This document shows, piece after piece, positions 3,767-10,082 of a stretch of 37,713 nucleotides of DNA. The position numbers and the translations under genes are program-made. This DNA is from a virus. The stretch is from the IMG/VR virus record IMGVR_UViG_3300042923_000336, positions 1-37,713 of that record. One strand, given 5' to 3'. A model generated the notes under the pieces. It had not been told where the DNA came from, did not search any database, and saw nothing but the letters and a program-made list of their open reading frames with translations. Positions within the stretch are counted from its first letter, which is position 1, and each line of letters starts with the position of its first letter.

Positions 3767-3916
3767 ATGGAACACAAAGCCACTTTAGCTTGCTCCTCTT
3801 GTATCGGTACTGGGCGTATATGGCTAGGAGATAAAATACTCTGTCGTCGCTGTTATGGATCAATTCCGCATAGCGAGAAGATGAAGATCATATCGGGAAG
3901 GAGTGAATCCAAATGA
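3767..3916 (+). CDS. small zinc-finger protein (DnaJ-like Cys motif)
   Basis: The product is 49 aa. ATG 3767 is preceded by TAGAGGG. Two Cys pairs, CSSCIGTG (about residues 9-16) and CRRCYG (about 26-31), form a CxxCxGxG...CxxCxG zinc site as in DnaJ cysteine-rich modules. Such minimal fingers are frequent next to late regulators in Bacillales phages. It may bind nucleic acid or a protein partner. The end overlaps the regulator gene by four bases (ATGA). Confidence 0.65.
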   Translation: MEHKATLACSSCIGTGRIWLGDKILCRRCYGSIPHSEKMKIISGRSESK

Positions 3917-4347
3917 ACAATGAAGACGTTTCAGAGATCCTAACAAACTTCCGATCATACCGTTATGCGGCAAAGGTAGGAGAAGCAGAAGGATACTTAG
4001 ACGGCGCTCCTACGCTCTACGGAGAGAGACAACGGAGTCCGAATAGGTGGGACGCTACGAGGTACAGTCGCATTGTAAACACGGTCAACGGGGCTGTAGA
4101 CGATGTGTTGACGGACGAGCAAAGAACAGTCATTAACCGCCGATACCTGGAGCGTAACCCATTGACACTCGGACAGATCGCGGACGTACTACATTGCGAC
4201 AGGAAGACCGTACAGCGTAGGCATAAAGAAGCGTTAAAGCAACTTAGCATAGCGCTTCAACCCATTGAACGGGAGACGGAGATAACACCATTCCCACATC
4301 GGTTCGATCCTGATTGGATATTCAAAGAGCAACTAGAGGGCGCGTAA
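3913..4347 (+). CDS. ArpU/RinA-like late-gene transcriptional activator
   Basis: The product is 144 aa. Residues about 30-60 are Tyr/Arg-rich, and the C-terminal half has a sigma-70 region 4-like helix-turn-helix: LTDEQRTVINRRYLERNPLT, then LGQIADVLHCDRKTVQRRHKEAL. This architecture matches the ArpU/RinA family, which switches on late (packaging, structural, lysis) transcription in phages of Gram-positive bacteria. Its position, the last gene before the terminase region and just before the structured segment at 4401-4600, fits. I infer that it activates a promoter between 4348 and 5250. Confidence 0.8.
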   Translation: MNNEDVSEILTNFRSYRYAAKVGEAEGYLDGAPTLYGERQRSPNRWDATRYSRIVNTVNGAVDDVLTDEQRTVINRRYLERNPLTLGQIADVLHCDRKTVQRRHKEALKQLSIALQPIERETEITPFPHRFDPDWIFKEQLEGA

Positions 4348-4400
4348 ATGTCCCATTTTTGCCCACAAAGTACCCACAAGTCATGATAAAATTCTAGTAT

Positions 4401-4600
4401 AGGGAATTGACGCTGAATGATGGCGATAAAGGCGACCCCCTTTCCCATCATTCACACAATTTCCTCAACAGGGCTGATAGTAGGGATGCTAAAAGCTCAG
4501 CCGCTCTCACGGATACAGACTACGTGGGGGCGGCAACAATATCCACCATTCCGCCTATACTCTTCTCCTTTAGTCGCCTAGTGCGGCTATTTTTGTTTTG
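4401..4600 (+). ncRNA. candidate structured RNA or late leader with terminator
   Basis: This 301-base gap has no credible gene but is heavily self-complementary. AGGGAATTG (4401-4409) pairs with CAATTTCCT (4457-4465). Inside it, TGAATGATGG (4414-4423) pairs with CCATCATTCA (4445-4454), and innermost AAAGG (4428-4432) with CCTTT (4439-4443). Next, GGCTGA (4472-4477) can pair with TCAGCC (4497-4502). GCCGCTCTCACG (4500-4511) pairs over 12 bp with CGTGGGGGCGGC (4523-4534) around an 11-nt loop; these two helices share three bases and exclude each other. GGCGG (4529-4533) can alternatively pair with CCGCC (4551-4555). An intrinsic terminator closes the element. Either a free RNA of about 200 nt or an antitermination/attenuation leader for late genes; no Rfam family recognised. 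Confidence 0.55.
4571..4600 (+). terminator. intrinsic terminator after the structured segment
   Basis: TAGTCGC (4571-4577) pairs with GCGGCTA (4583-4589), one G-U, 5-nt loop, followed by TTTTTGTTTTG. It separates the structured segment from the first small late-region gene. Confidence 0.8.
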
Positions 4601-5250: not shown

Positions 5251-5517
5251 TTGGCTATATTTTACGTGGATATCACAATTAACCGCGAGTTCGACCAGAG
5301 GGAAATGGAGAAAGACATTGGTGACCGAATATCACAAGAACATACGAGTACGGTATCGTTCTTCAATCCATTGACCGGGGATACAAGCGCAACGAAGATC
5401 AAGATAAACACAGGCGACTACACGATAGAAAAAATAGGTGAAGCTGTCACGGCTGAAGCAGGGAATTACTTCACAGTGACAGACGTATCAATGCCGGGAG
5501 AATGGGAGCGCCGATAA
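5251..5517 (+). CDS. small unknown protein before terminase, TTG start
   Basis: The product is 88 aa. I choose TTG 5251 because TAGGGGGA lies directly upstream; a GTG at 5221 has no ribosome site. The sequence alternates strands (IFYVDITI at the N-terminus, ATKIKINTGDYTIEKIGEAV in the middle), suggesting a small beta-rich protein. The last codons overlap the stem of an intrinsic terminator. No family recognised. Confidence 0.6.
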   Translation: MAIFYVDITINREFDQREMEKDIGDRISQEHTSTVSFFNPLTGDTSATKIKINTGDYTIEKIGEAVTAEAGNYFTVTDVSMPGEWERR

Positions 5518-5533
5518 GGCGTTCTTTTATTTT
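5506..5533 (+). terminator. intrinsic terminator before terS
   Basis: GAGCGCC (5506-5512) pairs with GGCGTTC (5518-5524), one G-U, 5-nt loop, followed by TTTTATTTT. It overlaps the stop of the preceding gene and precedes the terS ribosome site. Confidence 0.7.
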
Positions 5534-5549: not shown

Positions 5550-6023
5550 ATGGCTTTGAATGCTAAACACATTTTATTCATAAATGATTACATGATAAGC
5601 CAGAATGTCACGACGTCATATCAAAAGGTTTATGGATGCACGGAAGAAGCAGCGCGCAAAAATGGATCAAGATTGATGACAAATGATGACATTCGGAGCG
5701 AAATTGAGCGGAGACAGAAAGCGATTAATGAGCAGGTGGAAGAGAACACAGGAATTAGCGTCCAATGGGTACTGGATAGCTTCAAATCCATTGCAGAACG
5801 CTGTATGCAAGCAGAATCTATAACGGATCGAGAAGGAAATCCAACAGGTGAGTGGCGCTTTGATTCATCGGGAGCCAATAAGGCAGTCGAGAGCATAGGA
5901 AAATACCTCGGCATGTTCAAGGATAAAGGCGATGCACCAGTTTTAACCAACACAGTGAATGTATCTGGCTTATCTCTTGAGGAGTTGAGGAATCTTGCTA
6001 AGTCTAAGCCAATCCCAACTTGA
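5550..6023 (+). CDS. terS: terminase small subunit
   Basis: The product is 157 aa, the usual size. It belongs to the Terminase_2-type small subunits that recognise the packaging site and load the large subunit on DNA. The N-terminal helix-turn-helix pattern (LNAKHILFINDYMISQNVTT, then SYQKVYGCTEEAARKNGSRL) is characteristic, followed by a helical region (residues 50-75) for oligomerisation. Ribosome site GAGGAGGTGAGG. Its 3' end overlaps terL by 29 bases, so the pair is co-translated. Confidence 0.9.
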   Translation: MALNAKHILFINDYMISQNVTTSYQKVYGCTEEAARKNGSRLMTNDDIRSEIERRQKAINEQVEENTGISVQWVLDSFKSIAERCMQAESITDREGNPTGEWRFDSSGANKAVESIGKYLGMFKDKGDAPVLTNTVNVSGLSLEELRNLAKSKPIPT

Positions 6024-7536
6024 AGCCATTGAAATAGCAGCAACGAACGAATTAGCAAGACAAGACTTCTCATATTTCATGGACTATCAGAGTGACTTCC
6101 AGGACATTGATGGCAAGCACTTAGATATACTGGATCAAACCTTGATGAAGGTATCTTCCGGGGAATTAAAGCGCGTCATAATAACAATGCCTCCACGTCA
6201 TGGGAAATCAGAACGAGTATCGAAGAAGTTCCCGGCTTGGCATGTTGGTAAGTATCCCGAAGACGAAATCATAGTAAGTTCCTACGCCCTCGGATTATCG
6301 AGGGATTTTTCAGTTATAGCGAGAGATACACTAAAGGAACATGGTGGCAAGGTATTCGACTATGAACTATCCAAATCACGTCAAGCAGGAGAGTCGTGGG
6401 GAATCGAAGGACATCGCGGAGGAATAAACGCTGCGGGTGTTGGCGGCCCCATTACGGGTAAGGGTGCAAGGATAGCCATTATCGACGACCCCGTTAAGAA
6501 TGCCGAGGAAGCCAATTCTGAGGTTATACGCGAGAATGTATGGCAATGGTATCAAACCACTCTCCTGACCCGTTTAACGCCTGATGGACGTATCATAGTG
6601 GTTATGACGAGGTGGCATGAGGACGATCTAGTAGGAAGGCTCCTCAAAAAGGAAAAGGAAGACATTAAGAATGGTGAGAAGATCAAGGAACCGTGGACGA
6701 TCATTAACATGCCAGCATATGCAGAGGAAAACGACATACTAGGTAGAAAAGAAGGCGAACCATTATGGCCTGAGTTTGGATTCACAAAAGAGGTTATGGA
6801 GCAAAAGCGGCTAGAGGTTGGCGGGTATACATGGAACGCCTTGTATCAGCAAAGACCATCGGCAGCAGGTGGAACGATATTCAAACGCGATAACTTCAAG
6901 TATTTCCGACAAGAGATGATCGGGAATGCTTTTTATTTTGTCTTAGGTGAAAAGAGATACCTCAAACGTGATTGCTGGGTATTACAAACCGTTGATACAG
7001 CCAATAGCGAGAAGACGATTAACGATTACTTCGTTGTCTCAACGTGGTACGTAACGCCTCAGAATGACTTGCTATGGTTCGATGCCTTTAGGACGCATAT
7101 AACGGGGCCGGATCAAAAGCCGCTTATGAAAGAGCAAAACAATCGTTACAGACCACGTTTCCAAGCAATTGAGGATAAGACATTCGGAACCAACCTCATA
7201 CAAGAATGCACACGCGAGGGAATGACGATTCGACCAATCAAGGTTGATAAAGACAAGGTTACGAGATCATTGGTCATAGCTGCTAGATACGAAGTGGGCA
7301 TGGTGTATCACAGAGAAGATATGCCAAACCTGACTGACATTGAAGATGAACTATTGTCATTCCCACGAGGCAAGCATGATGACGCGGTAGACACAGCTTC
7401 AATGGCGGGAGAGATCGTCCACAGCTTAGCGGTTACTTCGGATCCATGGTTAGCTGTTCCGGATGAGAGGGAAAGAGTCGAGTTCGATCTAGATTATGAC
7501 GAAGAAAACGCCATAACGGAAGAGGGCTTCTGGTGA
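5995..7536 (+). CDS. terL: terminase large subunit
   Basis: The product is 513 aa with a TTG start inside the end of terS; GAGGAGTTGAGG lies upstream. It is the packaging motor: the N-terminal ATPase carries the Walker A-like MPPRHGKSE (about residues 65-73) and Walker B RIAIIDDPV (about 158-166). The C-terminal RNase H-like nuclease shows its acidic positions in VDTANSE (about 333), AIEDKTFG (about 396) and HDDAVDTA (about 460). The C-terminal block resembles the TIGR01630-type terminases. It translocates DNA through the portal encoded two genes downstream. Confidence 0.95.
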   Translation: MLSLSQSQLEAIEIAATNELARQDFSYFMDYQSDFQDIDGKHLDILDQTLMKVSSGELKRVIITMPPRHGKSERVSKKFPAWHVGKYPEDEIIVSSYALGLSRDFSVIARDTLKEHGGKVFDYELSKSRQAGESWGIEGHRGGINAAGVGGPITGKGARIAIIDDPVKNAEEANSEVIRENVWQWYQTTLLTRLTPDGRIIVVMTRWHEDDLVGRLLKKEKEDIKNGEKIKEPWTIINMPAYAEENDILGRKEGEPLWPEFGFTKEVMEQKRLEVGGYTWNALYQQRPSAAGGTIFKRDNFKYFRQEMIGNAFYFVLGEKRYLKRDCWVLQTVDTANSEKTINDYFVVSTWYVTPQNDLLWFDAFRTHITGPDQKPLMKEQNNRYRPRFQAIEDKTFGTNLIQECTREGMTIRPIKVDKDKVTRSLVIAARYEVGMVYHREDMPNLTDIEDELLSFPRGKHDDAVDTASMAGEIVHSLAVTSDPWLAVPDERERVEFDLDYDEENAITEEGFW

Positions 7537-7964: not shown

Positions 7965-10082
7965 GTGGCAGACAAGGTAGAAGGCATATTCGTCAGCACT
8001 GAGCCGGGGAAAGAGTCAAACAACAGTAATCCCAATACACCTGAGCAACAGGAAATAGTTACGATGGTGCAAGGTGACTATCAGGTGTTTAAGGCTGATC
8101 GCCAAGAGATTGAAGATACATGGCGCGAGGAAGAACGGATGTACGAAGGAGGTAAGCGGCAGTGGGAAGGCTTGAGGTCATCGGCAACGATGAAGAATCG
8201 ACCCAATTCAACCGACAACATCGCATTCAGCCAGATAGAAGGTATCGTATCCGCATTAACTGGTTGGACACCTGAGGGAACATTCGAAGCAACCGAGAAC
8301 GGTGACGAGCAGAAGTCAAAAGAACTGACCAAGTATATGCCGTTCGAGTTAAGGCAGATTAAGTTCAAACAAAAATACGTCAAGGCAGTCCGTAGGTTCG
8401 TCAACCACGGGCTTTTATTATTTAAGACGGTATATAACCCTGATGTAGAGGGTGGTCGAGGGAATAATCGCTGGACAGGTCAAAACGATATTATCCCTTT
8501 GGACTATGGTTGCTTCTTCCCGGATCCGCGCATTCGTGACTTGATGTATATACAGAAATCAAAAGCGATGATCATACACCAACGAAAGCCATTGGAGTAC
8601 TTCAAGGAACGCTGGGAGAAGCAAGGCAAGAAAGTAATGGAGGATATGTACTCCGAGGACGTTGAGATATTCGAATCAGATCGAAATGTAACTGAGAGAG
8701 CATTTAACGCTAATGCGGTTCAAGGAACATTAGGGCCGGAGAAGCAAAAGACATCGGGACTCATTGAATATTGGTACAAAGGTACGCCAAAGATGGTGTC
8801 CCCGGACGACAAGAAGCTGTTTATGGAGATGGCAAAAGAGAAGATAGAAGAAGGCAAAGACCCATCTTCATGTATTGCTAAGGCAGAGGGTAAGGCGAAA
8901 GGTATTCACTGTATTTACATCTCAACATCCGGTGTGTTCCTGGAGCATAAAGCCTATGTGTACGACCATGGCAACTATCCAGTAATCGTTAGGTGCTTGT
9001 TCACCATTGAAGGAACGATATGGCCTAAAGGTTATATGCGCGACCTTATAAGTCCTCAGATCATGCTTAACAAGTTCTCCGAGCTTGCGGTTGAGCAGAC
9101 AGCCAAGATGGGTAATGGGGCAATCATCTATGAGGAAGGATCCATAGCGGAAAGTAAGATACCGATTTGGAAGAGATTGCGAAGTTCGGTTGGTGCGATG
9201 CTCCCAGCTACGCGCAAGGATGGCATTCAGGAGATTGAAGGCAAAGGGCCGCCGACAATGATTATGAACTTCATTCAACATTGGCTCACCATCTTGCAGA
9301 AGATACCTAGACGCTTCGACAATGCTTCCGGAGGGGTTAGTTACCAAGGGGAGTCAGGAAAACACGCAGAAGCTTTACAGGCGGCGGCACATGGTAACCT
9401 ATCAACGCCTACGGAATTGATCGAGGATGCTCTTGTGGAAGTGTTAGAGCAGTATATCGAGTTGATAGCTCAGTTTTACACGCAGGAGCGCATTGGTCGA
9501 GTGCTAAACCAACAAGTTACCATTGGAAGATCATACTTACTGAACCAAGCGCAATCGAGTTATATGGTTCCTCAGGAAGATGGAACGGAAATTGAAATGG
9601 AAGTGACGGAGGAGTACGTTCCTGCTTTCGATATTACGGTCACCATTGGCGTAGAACGACCTATGGATCGTCAGTACTGGATACAAACCGCACAAATGCT
9701 ATTCCAGACCATTGATCCATTAACAGGACTTCCGGTCATTGACGCTAAGGCTTTGCAATATTCGGTTGAGAATGGTCGCATGGAGCCGTTCGATGTGATT
9801 GACGAGCGGATAAAGAAAGATGTCATGCTTCAACAAAAAATGCAAGAGCTTCAGCAGCAGAATGAGCAGTTAAACGCACAAGTTCAGCAAATGGGAAGCG
9901 AGTTGCAGAAGGTTGATTCCTCTAAAACGGAGTCTGAAACGAGGAGACAGGAGTTTGAACAAAACAAATCAGTCAACCAACAGGAACTTGAGTGGGCTAA
10001 GTTGGATCAACAAGGTAAACAAACAGAATTGAATGCCGCATTACAGATGGAGAAGTTGAGACAACCAGTAGGCGTTAGATAA
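7965..10082 (+). CDS. portal protein (P22-like size)
   Basis: The product is 705 aa with a GTG start after AAAGGTGGTGAGT. Position directly after terminase and before the scaffold, great length and the N-terminal EIEDTWREEERMYEGGKRQW segment identify the dodecameric DNA-entry channel. It is much longer than siphovirus portals and in the range of P22-like portals. The last 110 residues or so (QKMQELQQQNEQLNAQVQQM onward) are a Gln-rich coiled coil, recalling the alpha-helical barrel of P22 portal. It docks the terminase on the outside and the adaptor proteins (13559, 14139) on the tail side. Confidence 0.88.
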   Translation: MADKVEGIFVSTEPGKESNNSNPNTPEQQEIVTMVQGDYQVFKADRQEIEDTWREEERMYEGGKRQWEGLRSSATMKNRPNSTDNIAFSQIEGIVSALTGWTPEGTFEATENGDEQKSKELTKYMPFELRQIKFKQKYVKAVRRFVNHGLLLFKTVYNPDVEGGRGNNRWTGQNDIIPLDYGCFFPDPRIRDLMYIQKSKAMIIHQRKPLEYFKERWEKQGKKVMEDMYSEDVEIFESDRNVTERAFNANAVQGTLGPEKQKTSGLIEYWYKGTPKMVSPDDKKLFMEMAKEKIEEGKDPSSCIAKAEGKAKGIHCIYISTSGVFLEHKAYVYDHGNYPVIVRCLFTIEGTIWPKGYMRDLISPQIMLNKFSELAVEQTAKMGNGAIIYEEGSIAESKIPIWKRLRSSVGAMLPATRKDGIQEIEGKGPPTMIMNFIQHWLTILQKIPRRFDNASGGVSYQGESGKHAEALQAAAHGNLSTPTELIEDALVEVLEQYIELIAQFYTQERIGRVLNQQVTIGRSYLLNQAQSSYMVPQEDGTEIEMEVTEEYVPAFDITVTIGVERPMDRQYWIQTAQMLFQTIDPLTGLPVIDAKALQYSVENGRMEPFDVIDERIKKDVMLQQKMQELQQQNEQLNAQVQQMGSELQKVDSSKTESETRRQEFEQNKSVNQQELEWAKLDQQGKQTELNAALQMEKLRQPVGVR

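Follow-up and report, generated by a model that had tools for sequence, protein, structure and literature searches.

Comparative analysis of a viral DNA record and its relatives revealed a conserved 5′ hairpin, H1, in the leader between an ArpU-like late regulator gene and the late genes. H1 combines strong covariation with strict synteny and defines an RNA family undescribed in Rfam or in the literature searched, where no account of an H1 late-leader RNA was found; the comparisons show that its RNA fold is conserved on the + strand and that it keeps a constant position after the ArpU-like gene. The window analyzed here, a 37.7-kb viral record with genes for a P22-type portal and for a large serine recombinase, contains one such leader (Table 1). 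The reading that we prefer, with confidence just short of even, is that 4399 to ~4599 specifies a late-promoter-to-terminator phage RNA, hairpin-capped and possibly self-pairing, that would act as a noncoding RNA.

Table 1. Features of the leader and its surroundings in the window
Feature	Position	Strand	Evidence
ArpU/sigma-70-region-4-like late transcription regulator gene	3913..4347	+	Pfam Sigma70_r4, E 7.5e-10; PHROG transcriptional regulator/activator families
Three CCCA repeats (4352, 4362, 4373), 10-11 nt spacing; possible ArpU binding site	4351..4380	+	Read from sequence
Extended −10 promoter TGATAAAAT; transcription predicted to start at A4399	4384..4392	+	Near-invariant TGnTAnaaT upstream of H1
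H1, conserved 5′ hairpin that defines the family; 9 bp + 10 bp + apical pairs	4401..4465	+	Covariation; held-out model match 4398-4467, E 6.8e-8 (rough)
H2, cargo hairpin, loop GGGA	4471..4498	+	Fold; stems swapped with pairing kept in L011, L014 and L012
H3, 12-bp cargo hairpin, conserved loop ATACAGACTA	4500..4534	+	Fold; both arms altered in L012 and L014, loop kept
Single-stranded linker; site of a tRNA-Leu-like domain in L014	4535..4570	+	Unpaired in MFE; comparison with L014
Intrinsic terminator TAGTCGCCTAGTGCGGCTA-TTTTTGTTTT; hairpin 4571-4589 plus T-run	4571..4599	+	Identical in L011 and L014
Second terminator-like hairpin, before terminase small subunit gene	5504..5531	+	Terminator search
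Terminase small subunit gene	5550..6023	+	Pfam Terminase_2, E 1.7e-14
Terminase large subunit gene	5995..7536	+	Pfam and PHROG matches
P22-like portal gene	7965..10082	+	Pfam P22_portal, E 2.1e-33

The 4401-4600 segment folds with a minimum free energy (MFE) of −70.0 kcal/mol, compared with a mean of −51.1 for shuffled sequences (z −4.63; 0 of 200 shuffles as good), and it is flanked by the ArpU-like gene and the late genes, in agreement with a first-pass annotation of this DNA that had placed a structured noncoding phage RNA between late activator and late genes. The long nested hairpin (H1), the 12-bp helix (H3, with arms GCCGCTCTCACG at 4500-4511 and CGTGGGGGCGGC at 4523-4534) and the terminator that it described are all present in the fold. 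Its statement that nearly every base can be paired was too strong, as only 58% of 4401-4589 is paired in the MFE structure, where 4535-4570 forms a single-stranded linker. No Rfam 15 family reaches its gathering cutoff in 4401-4600 or in relatives, consistent with the annotation's remark that no named RNA family looks like this element. Its view that the region holds no credible ORF was also borne out: the two ORFs that cross the element (54 and 81 aa) have no family match, and in each of the three closest homologs the 54-aa frame either is truncated or has lost its register. The annotation had missed the promoter at H1, the family beyond the window and the cargo modules with their likeness to tRNA-Leu.

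Searching 400 Paenibacillaceae genomes with the ArpU protein gave 29 with a match, and downstream of most of these matches lies the same architecture of promoter, 5′ hairpin, variable stretch and terminator. Compensatory changes, which the first-pass annotation had suggested seeking in homologs, were found strongly for H1: in an 18-sequence MAFFT alignment, 13 of 16 pairs show double compensatory changes and 93.7% of cells are paired, a result that none of 500 shuffles equaled. The first model, R1, from which L009 was left out because MAFFT misaligned this divergent sequence, finds H1 in 24 of the 400 genomes of the family Paenibacillaceae; in 16 of 399 genomes of an order-level sample, each of which is among those matched in the family; and in a class-level sample of 400 genomes, where three of the matched genomes had already come up in the family and one further match is doubtful. 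In addition, a DNA pattern search picked out 41 viral contigs, and R1 confirms most of these. Among the samples searched, all H1 matches come from prophages of Paenibacillaceae or from viral contigs; the named hosts are Cohnella nanjingensis (DSM 28246, host of L008) and C. xylanilytica (DSM 25239, host of L009), with the other hosts placed at the family level. A DNA search of a phage collection with the window leader and the leaders of two relatives returned no match.

Across 38 distinct H1 sequences, 93.1% of paired positions stay paired, compared with 32-49% for slid controls, and double changes occur in 16 of 18 pairs; this alignment was fitted to the model, so that the pair count leans toward it (the MAFFT alignments lack that bias), and sequences within a clade are related, so that pair counts are not independent events. 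H1 is conserved mostly in its pairing and less in its sequence, and it has a fixed bulge, a conserved apical motif and an invariant U-A/G-C step (columns 16/82 and 20/79). There are 90 G-U cells in the pairing, which reaches 93.1% on the + strand compared with 83.4% on the other strand; this argues for RNA, and for the + strand. The same observations bear on the proposal that the inverted repeat acts as a DNA operator or that the region codes for protein. Inverted repeats can be operators and the 54-aa ORF spans the element, but the G-U cells and strand asymmetry, the off-center position of the palindrome in the hairpin and the lack of ORF conservation make this proposal scarcely credible.

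Because the window was part of R1, the H1 covariance model was rebuilt without the window and L012. The resulting model, R3, made without the window or its close relatives, finds the window with E 6.8e-8 and 33.9 bits (next best match, E 1.1), model E-values being rough, and it also finds other loci that were unused in its building. Weak matches near 1e-3 (L009 and L039) were accepted only because of their synteny. A match in L078 (E 0.003 with R1; 7e-4 with R3), located in an apparent transporter gene, was taken as chance, as were the pattern matches L015-L021, L141, L142 and L160-L170, which fall mostly in coding sequence.

An ArpU-like gene lies immediately upstream of H1 at 58 of 63 loci, a count to be read with the fact that many loci were originally located via ArpU, although the pattern-found contigs L079-L119 were not; the gene usually ends 40-80 nt before H1. 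Of the five loci that lack an adjacent ArpU-like gene, one is at a contig edge and two have an ArpU match farther upstream. Terminase and/or portal genes lie downstream of H1 in the loci checked (L101, L092, L087 and L012). The window has the same context, with the ArpU-like gene upstream, the extended −10 at its fixed distance, and a terminator and terminase genes downstream. The extended −10 motif TGnTAnaaT stands at this fixed distance upstream of H1 across the family (T 98%, A 98%, last T 100%), and with its spacing it occurs once in the whole window. The position of this promoter predicts a transcription start ~2 nt before H1, and thus late transcripts should carry H1 at their very 5′ end. 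CCCA-like repeats are also found upstream of many other family leaders, and those in the window may serve as an ArpU binding site.

A hairpin so placed could simply be a generic 5′ stabilizer of the late mRNA, with the terminator merely tuning output and the remainder being a tolerated insertion. In Bacillus leaders, a 5′-terminal hairpin blocks attack by RppH/RNase J, and both the start of H1 ~2 nt from the predicted +1 and the conservation of pairing over sequence suit such a role. However, a stabilizer needs no fixed bulge, invariant U-A/G-C step, conserved apical motif or palindromes, and no strict linkage to ArpU-like genes, and we regard this explanation as doubtful.

Three distinct leaders closely related to that of the window were found on viral contigs (L011, L012 and L014; L013 is a second record of the L011 leader). 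L011 retains H1 and H3 and differs in H2 (TGAGAT..ATCTCA versus GGGCT..AGCTC in the window), while L014 and L012 also swap both arms of H3 (CCGCGCCTGT../..CGGGCGCGG) and keep its loop. When the four leaders are compared, the H2 and H3 changes are helix-by-helix compensations. In L012 the ArpU protein is much diverged (29-41% identity) and the flanks barely align as DNA, yet H1 is almost identical. These comparisons also bear on the mutually exclusive helices that the first-pass annotation described, from which it concluded that the element is either a free noncoding RNA or a switchable leader. In the window, GGCTGA/TCAGCC indeed overlaps H3 at 4500-4502, and CCGCC can pair with GGCGG, as would be expected of a switchable attenuator. 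But neither competing pairing is present outside the window sequence: L011, L012 and L014 form both H2 and H3 without overlap, the MFE structure of the window itself holds H2 and H3 simultaneously, and in other members the cargo is absent or unrelated. As relatives either lack the part between H1 and the terminator or have an entirely different one in its place, a conserved exchange of helices cannot be the general mechanism. The structured noncoding RNA stands, and a switch, built on competing pairings peculiar to one sequence, is very improbable.

The distance from H1 to the terminator ranges from about 20 to nearly 400 nt across the family. The same or nearly the same pair of H1 and terminator is seen both in leaders that have cargo and in leaders that lack it (L057 and L084 versus L098, L056 and L088), a second frame does likewise (L067 versus L066, L089 and L111), and the window and L011 compare in this way with L014. 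Cargo-free leaders consist of H1 and terminator only and measure ~100 nt. These sequence pairs show H1 and terminator as a constant frame and the middle as an exchangeable cargo slot, which holds nothing, small hairpins (H2 and H3 in the window) or tRNA-Leu-like domains.

Several modules recur between leaders. A hairpin with the base GGTGAyAA../..TCACATA, whose upper stem varies freely but remains paired, is found in the L008, L009, L069, L070, L075 and L093 leaders, apparently in more than one copy in L093 and L075. In L058, L059, L060 and L064, a module AGCG(C/T)(T/C)GATTGCTACGG(G)TCGGCGCT..TTAGCAACA(A/G)CC with its own T-run lies between H1 and the final terminator. A 65-nt module (GTGGTTAATAACAC(T/G)CACGGG..CCGACCACTAACCGTC) is nearly identical in the otherwise unlike L008 and L045 (L068) leaders, as if it had moved between phages. 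By inspection, putative free-standing HNH endonuclease genes flank the leaders of relatives, after the leader in L002/L011 and L014 and before the ArpU gene in L012 (5889-6419); such endonucleases might aid the movement of leader cargo.

The tRNA-Leu-like domain is present in ten leaders (L014, L056, L059, L066, L069, L074, L088, L089, L098 and L111). Its acceptor measures 7 bp, its D arm is that of tRNA-Leu (GTGGCGGAATAGGTAGACGC or close to it), and its T arm has 6-7 bp and a loop of 7 nt; where the anticodon and variable arms would be, there is a long stretch that is unrelated between copies. In the acceptor, D and T stems, some of the changes are compensatory. A model built from this cargo alone, R2, retrieves host-chromosome tRNA-Leu(UAA) genes, and the likeness to leucine tRNA therefore counts as tested; the cargo used for R2 received no tRNA call from ARAGORN or the Rfam tRNA model. 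Elsewhere in the family, the L050 leader contains a tRNA-like segment (46 bits) and the L008 leader has an ARAGORN tRNA-Leu call. Domains of this kind also occur outside leaders in L135-L138, and R2 finds four away from any H1 (G127, G206, G053 and G100).

Divergent H1 hairpins carry six kinds of 6-nt palindrome in their apical loops (TGCGCA, CGCGCG, TGATCA, TGTACA, CGGCCG and TCGCGA). Palindromes occur in 8 of 12 representatives compared with 2.9 expected (p 0.0025, or 0.016 when the main clade is left out and 0.046 when G-U is allowed), a p-value that is only indicative because the representatives were picked after the loops had been seen. A palindrome is absent from the window, L011, L012 and L014, and also from L039 and L008, and is thus not a requirement for membership. 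These loops suggest, though they do not prove, loop–loop pairing (kissing dimers) between RNA copies. They resemble the HIV-1 DIS, a kissing hairpin with a 6-nt GC-rich palindrome in its apical loop (PMC7357161), in that they could self-pair as judged from their sequence; the window H1 has no such palindrome. Kissing between H1 and H2 within the window (loop CCC against GGG) is not claimed, as it would comprise at most ~3 bp and never varies.

For the noncoding RNA that we favor, the upstream ArpU-like protein would activate the extended −10 promoter, and the RNA would start ~2 nt before H1 and so open with the H1 hairpin. Most transcripts would end at the leader terminator, giving a ~200-nt RNA with a hairpin at each end, while a fraction may read through into the terminase, portal and later genes. 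In the window phage, the cargo hairpins H2 and H3 would present conserved loops. The likeliest role of H1 would be to shield the 5′ end and, through the palindromic loops of most members, to pair two RNA copies, as the statistics hint; the window RNA, which has no palindrome, would need another contact. Once released, the RNA would act in trans late in infection. At loci where the terminator candidate is weak or undetected, the case for a discrete RNA is less secure, and no target or protein partner of the leader RNA was found. In addition, cargo-free leaders leave little RNA for action in trans, so that a cis role of H1 fits these better.

The layout recalls known phage RNAs. Lambda 6S RNA is made from the late promoter pR′ to the terminator tR′. 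In Shiga-toxin phages, StxS is likewise a late promoter-to-terminator RNA and a working sRNA that acts in trans (PMC7873438). By its sequence layout, the window RNA is of similar size and would run from a late promoter to an intrinsic terminator between the late regulator and the late genes. In contrast to both, its regulator is Sigma70_r4/ArpU-like and not a Q-type antiterminator, and the H1 family has a covarying 5′ hairpin, swappable cargo and Gram-positive hosts, with no sequence relation shown. GOLLD and ROOL are phage or prophage noncoding RNAs with a constant and a variable region, sometimes with tRNAs in the linker, and with kissing loops between copies (PMC12286853). Unlike H1 leaders, they measure ~500-800 nt and have other structures, and oligomerization of H1 leaders is only suggested by the palindromic loops. 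Their Rfam models found no match in the window or its relatives, and a ROOL match in 1 of 151 Bacilli genomes was too few for a comparison of contexts.

The family makes an old question testable, namely what use phages make of the RNA between late promoter and late terminator, and it offers ready comparisons in the form of one frame with and without cargo and named Cohnella host strains. The cargo slot, whose tRNA-Leu-like domains differ from copy to copy in their anticodon region, resembles an RNA counterpart of phage cargo genes. A bolder extension, which we think unlikely, is that temperate phages possess a modular self-pairing RNA platform, in which a constant frame of 5′ kissing hairpin and terminator would enclose a slot in the late leader for swappable cassettes, some of them mimics of tRNA-Leu whose anticodon arms are hypervariable, each acting as a late decoy or regulator against host functions.

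The main rival to a trans-acting noncoding RNA is that H1 is a cis-acting antiterminator like put of phage HK022, which would fold on emerging from RNA polymerase, stay bound to it and let it pass the leader terminator and the many within the late operon; we consider this possible but somewhat improbable. HK022 putL is ~70 nt long and lies just downstream of PL, and put has two stem-loops (PMC9378689). Like put, which shares with it a size range of about 65-75 nt, H1 is a structured RNA at the 5′ end (for H1, the predicted extreme 5′ end) of a phage transcript with terminators downstream; H1 is ~65 nt in length, bulged and constant whatever the cargo. However, H1 is one hairpin in a late leader, in contrast to two stem-loops in early operons, some members are without other structure before the terminator, and palindromic loops are not expected for put. 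Moreover, a constitutive cis antiterminator makes the leader terminator pointless unless other transcripts must be stopped.

The distribution of terminators bears on this rival in both directions. In the first 1.3 kb after H1 there are 1.18 terminator candidates per locus on the + strand compared with 0.10 on the − strand; most loci have at least one after H1, 14 of 51 have two or more, and in some the candidate is weak or not detected. The late region of the window contains ~9 candidates on the + strand compared with 2 on the other, some of which leave little room for a promoter ahead of the following gene, as an antiterminator would lead one to expect. Late-operon + strand candidates number 2.2 per 10 kb in H1 phages versus 0.7-1.5 in four control phages without H1, and the presence of such candidates in the controls too weakens terminator density as proof of antitermination. 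In the late gene block of the window, textbook terminator-like hairpins are seen on the + strand at 5525, 10111, 13099, 17164, 21007, 27162 and 28735, several of them at gene borders.
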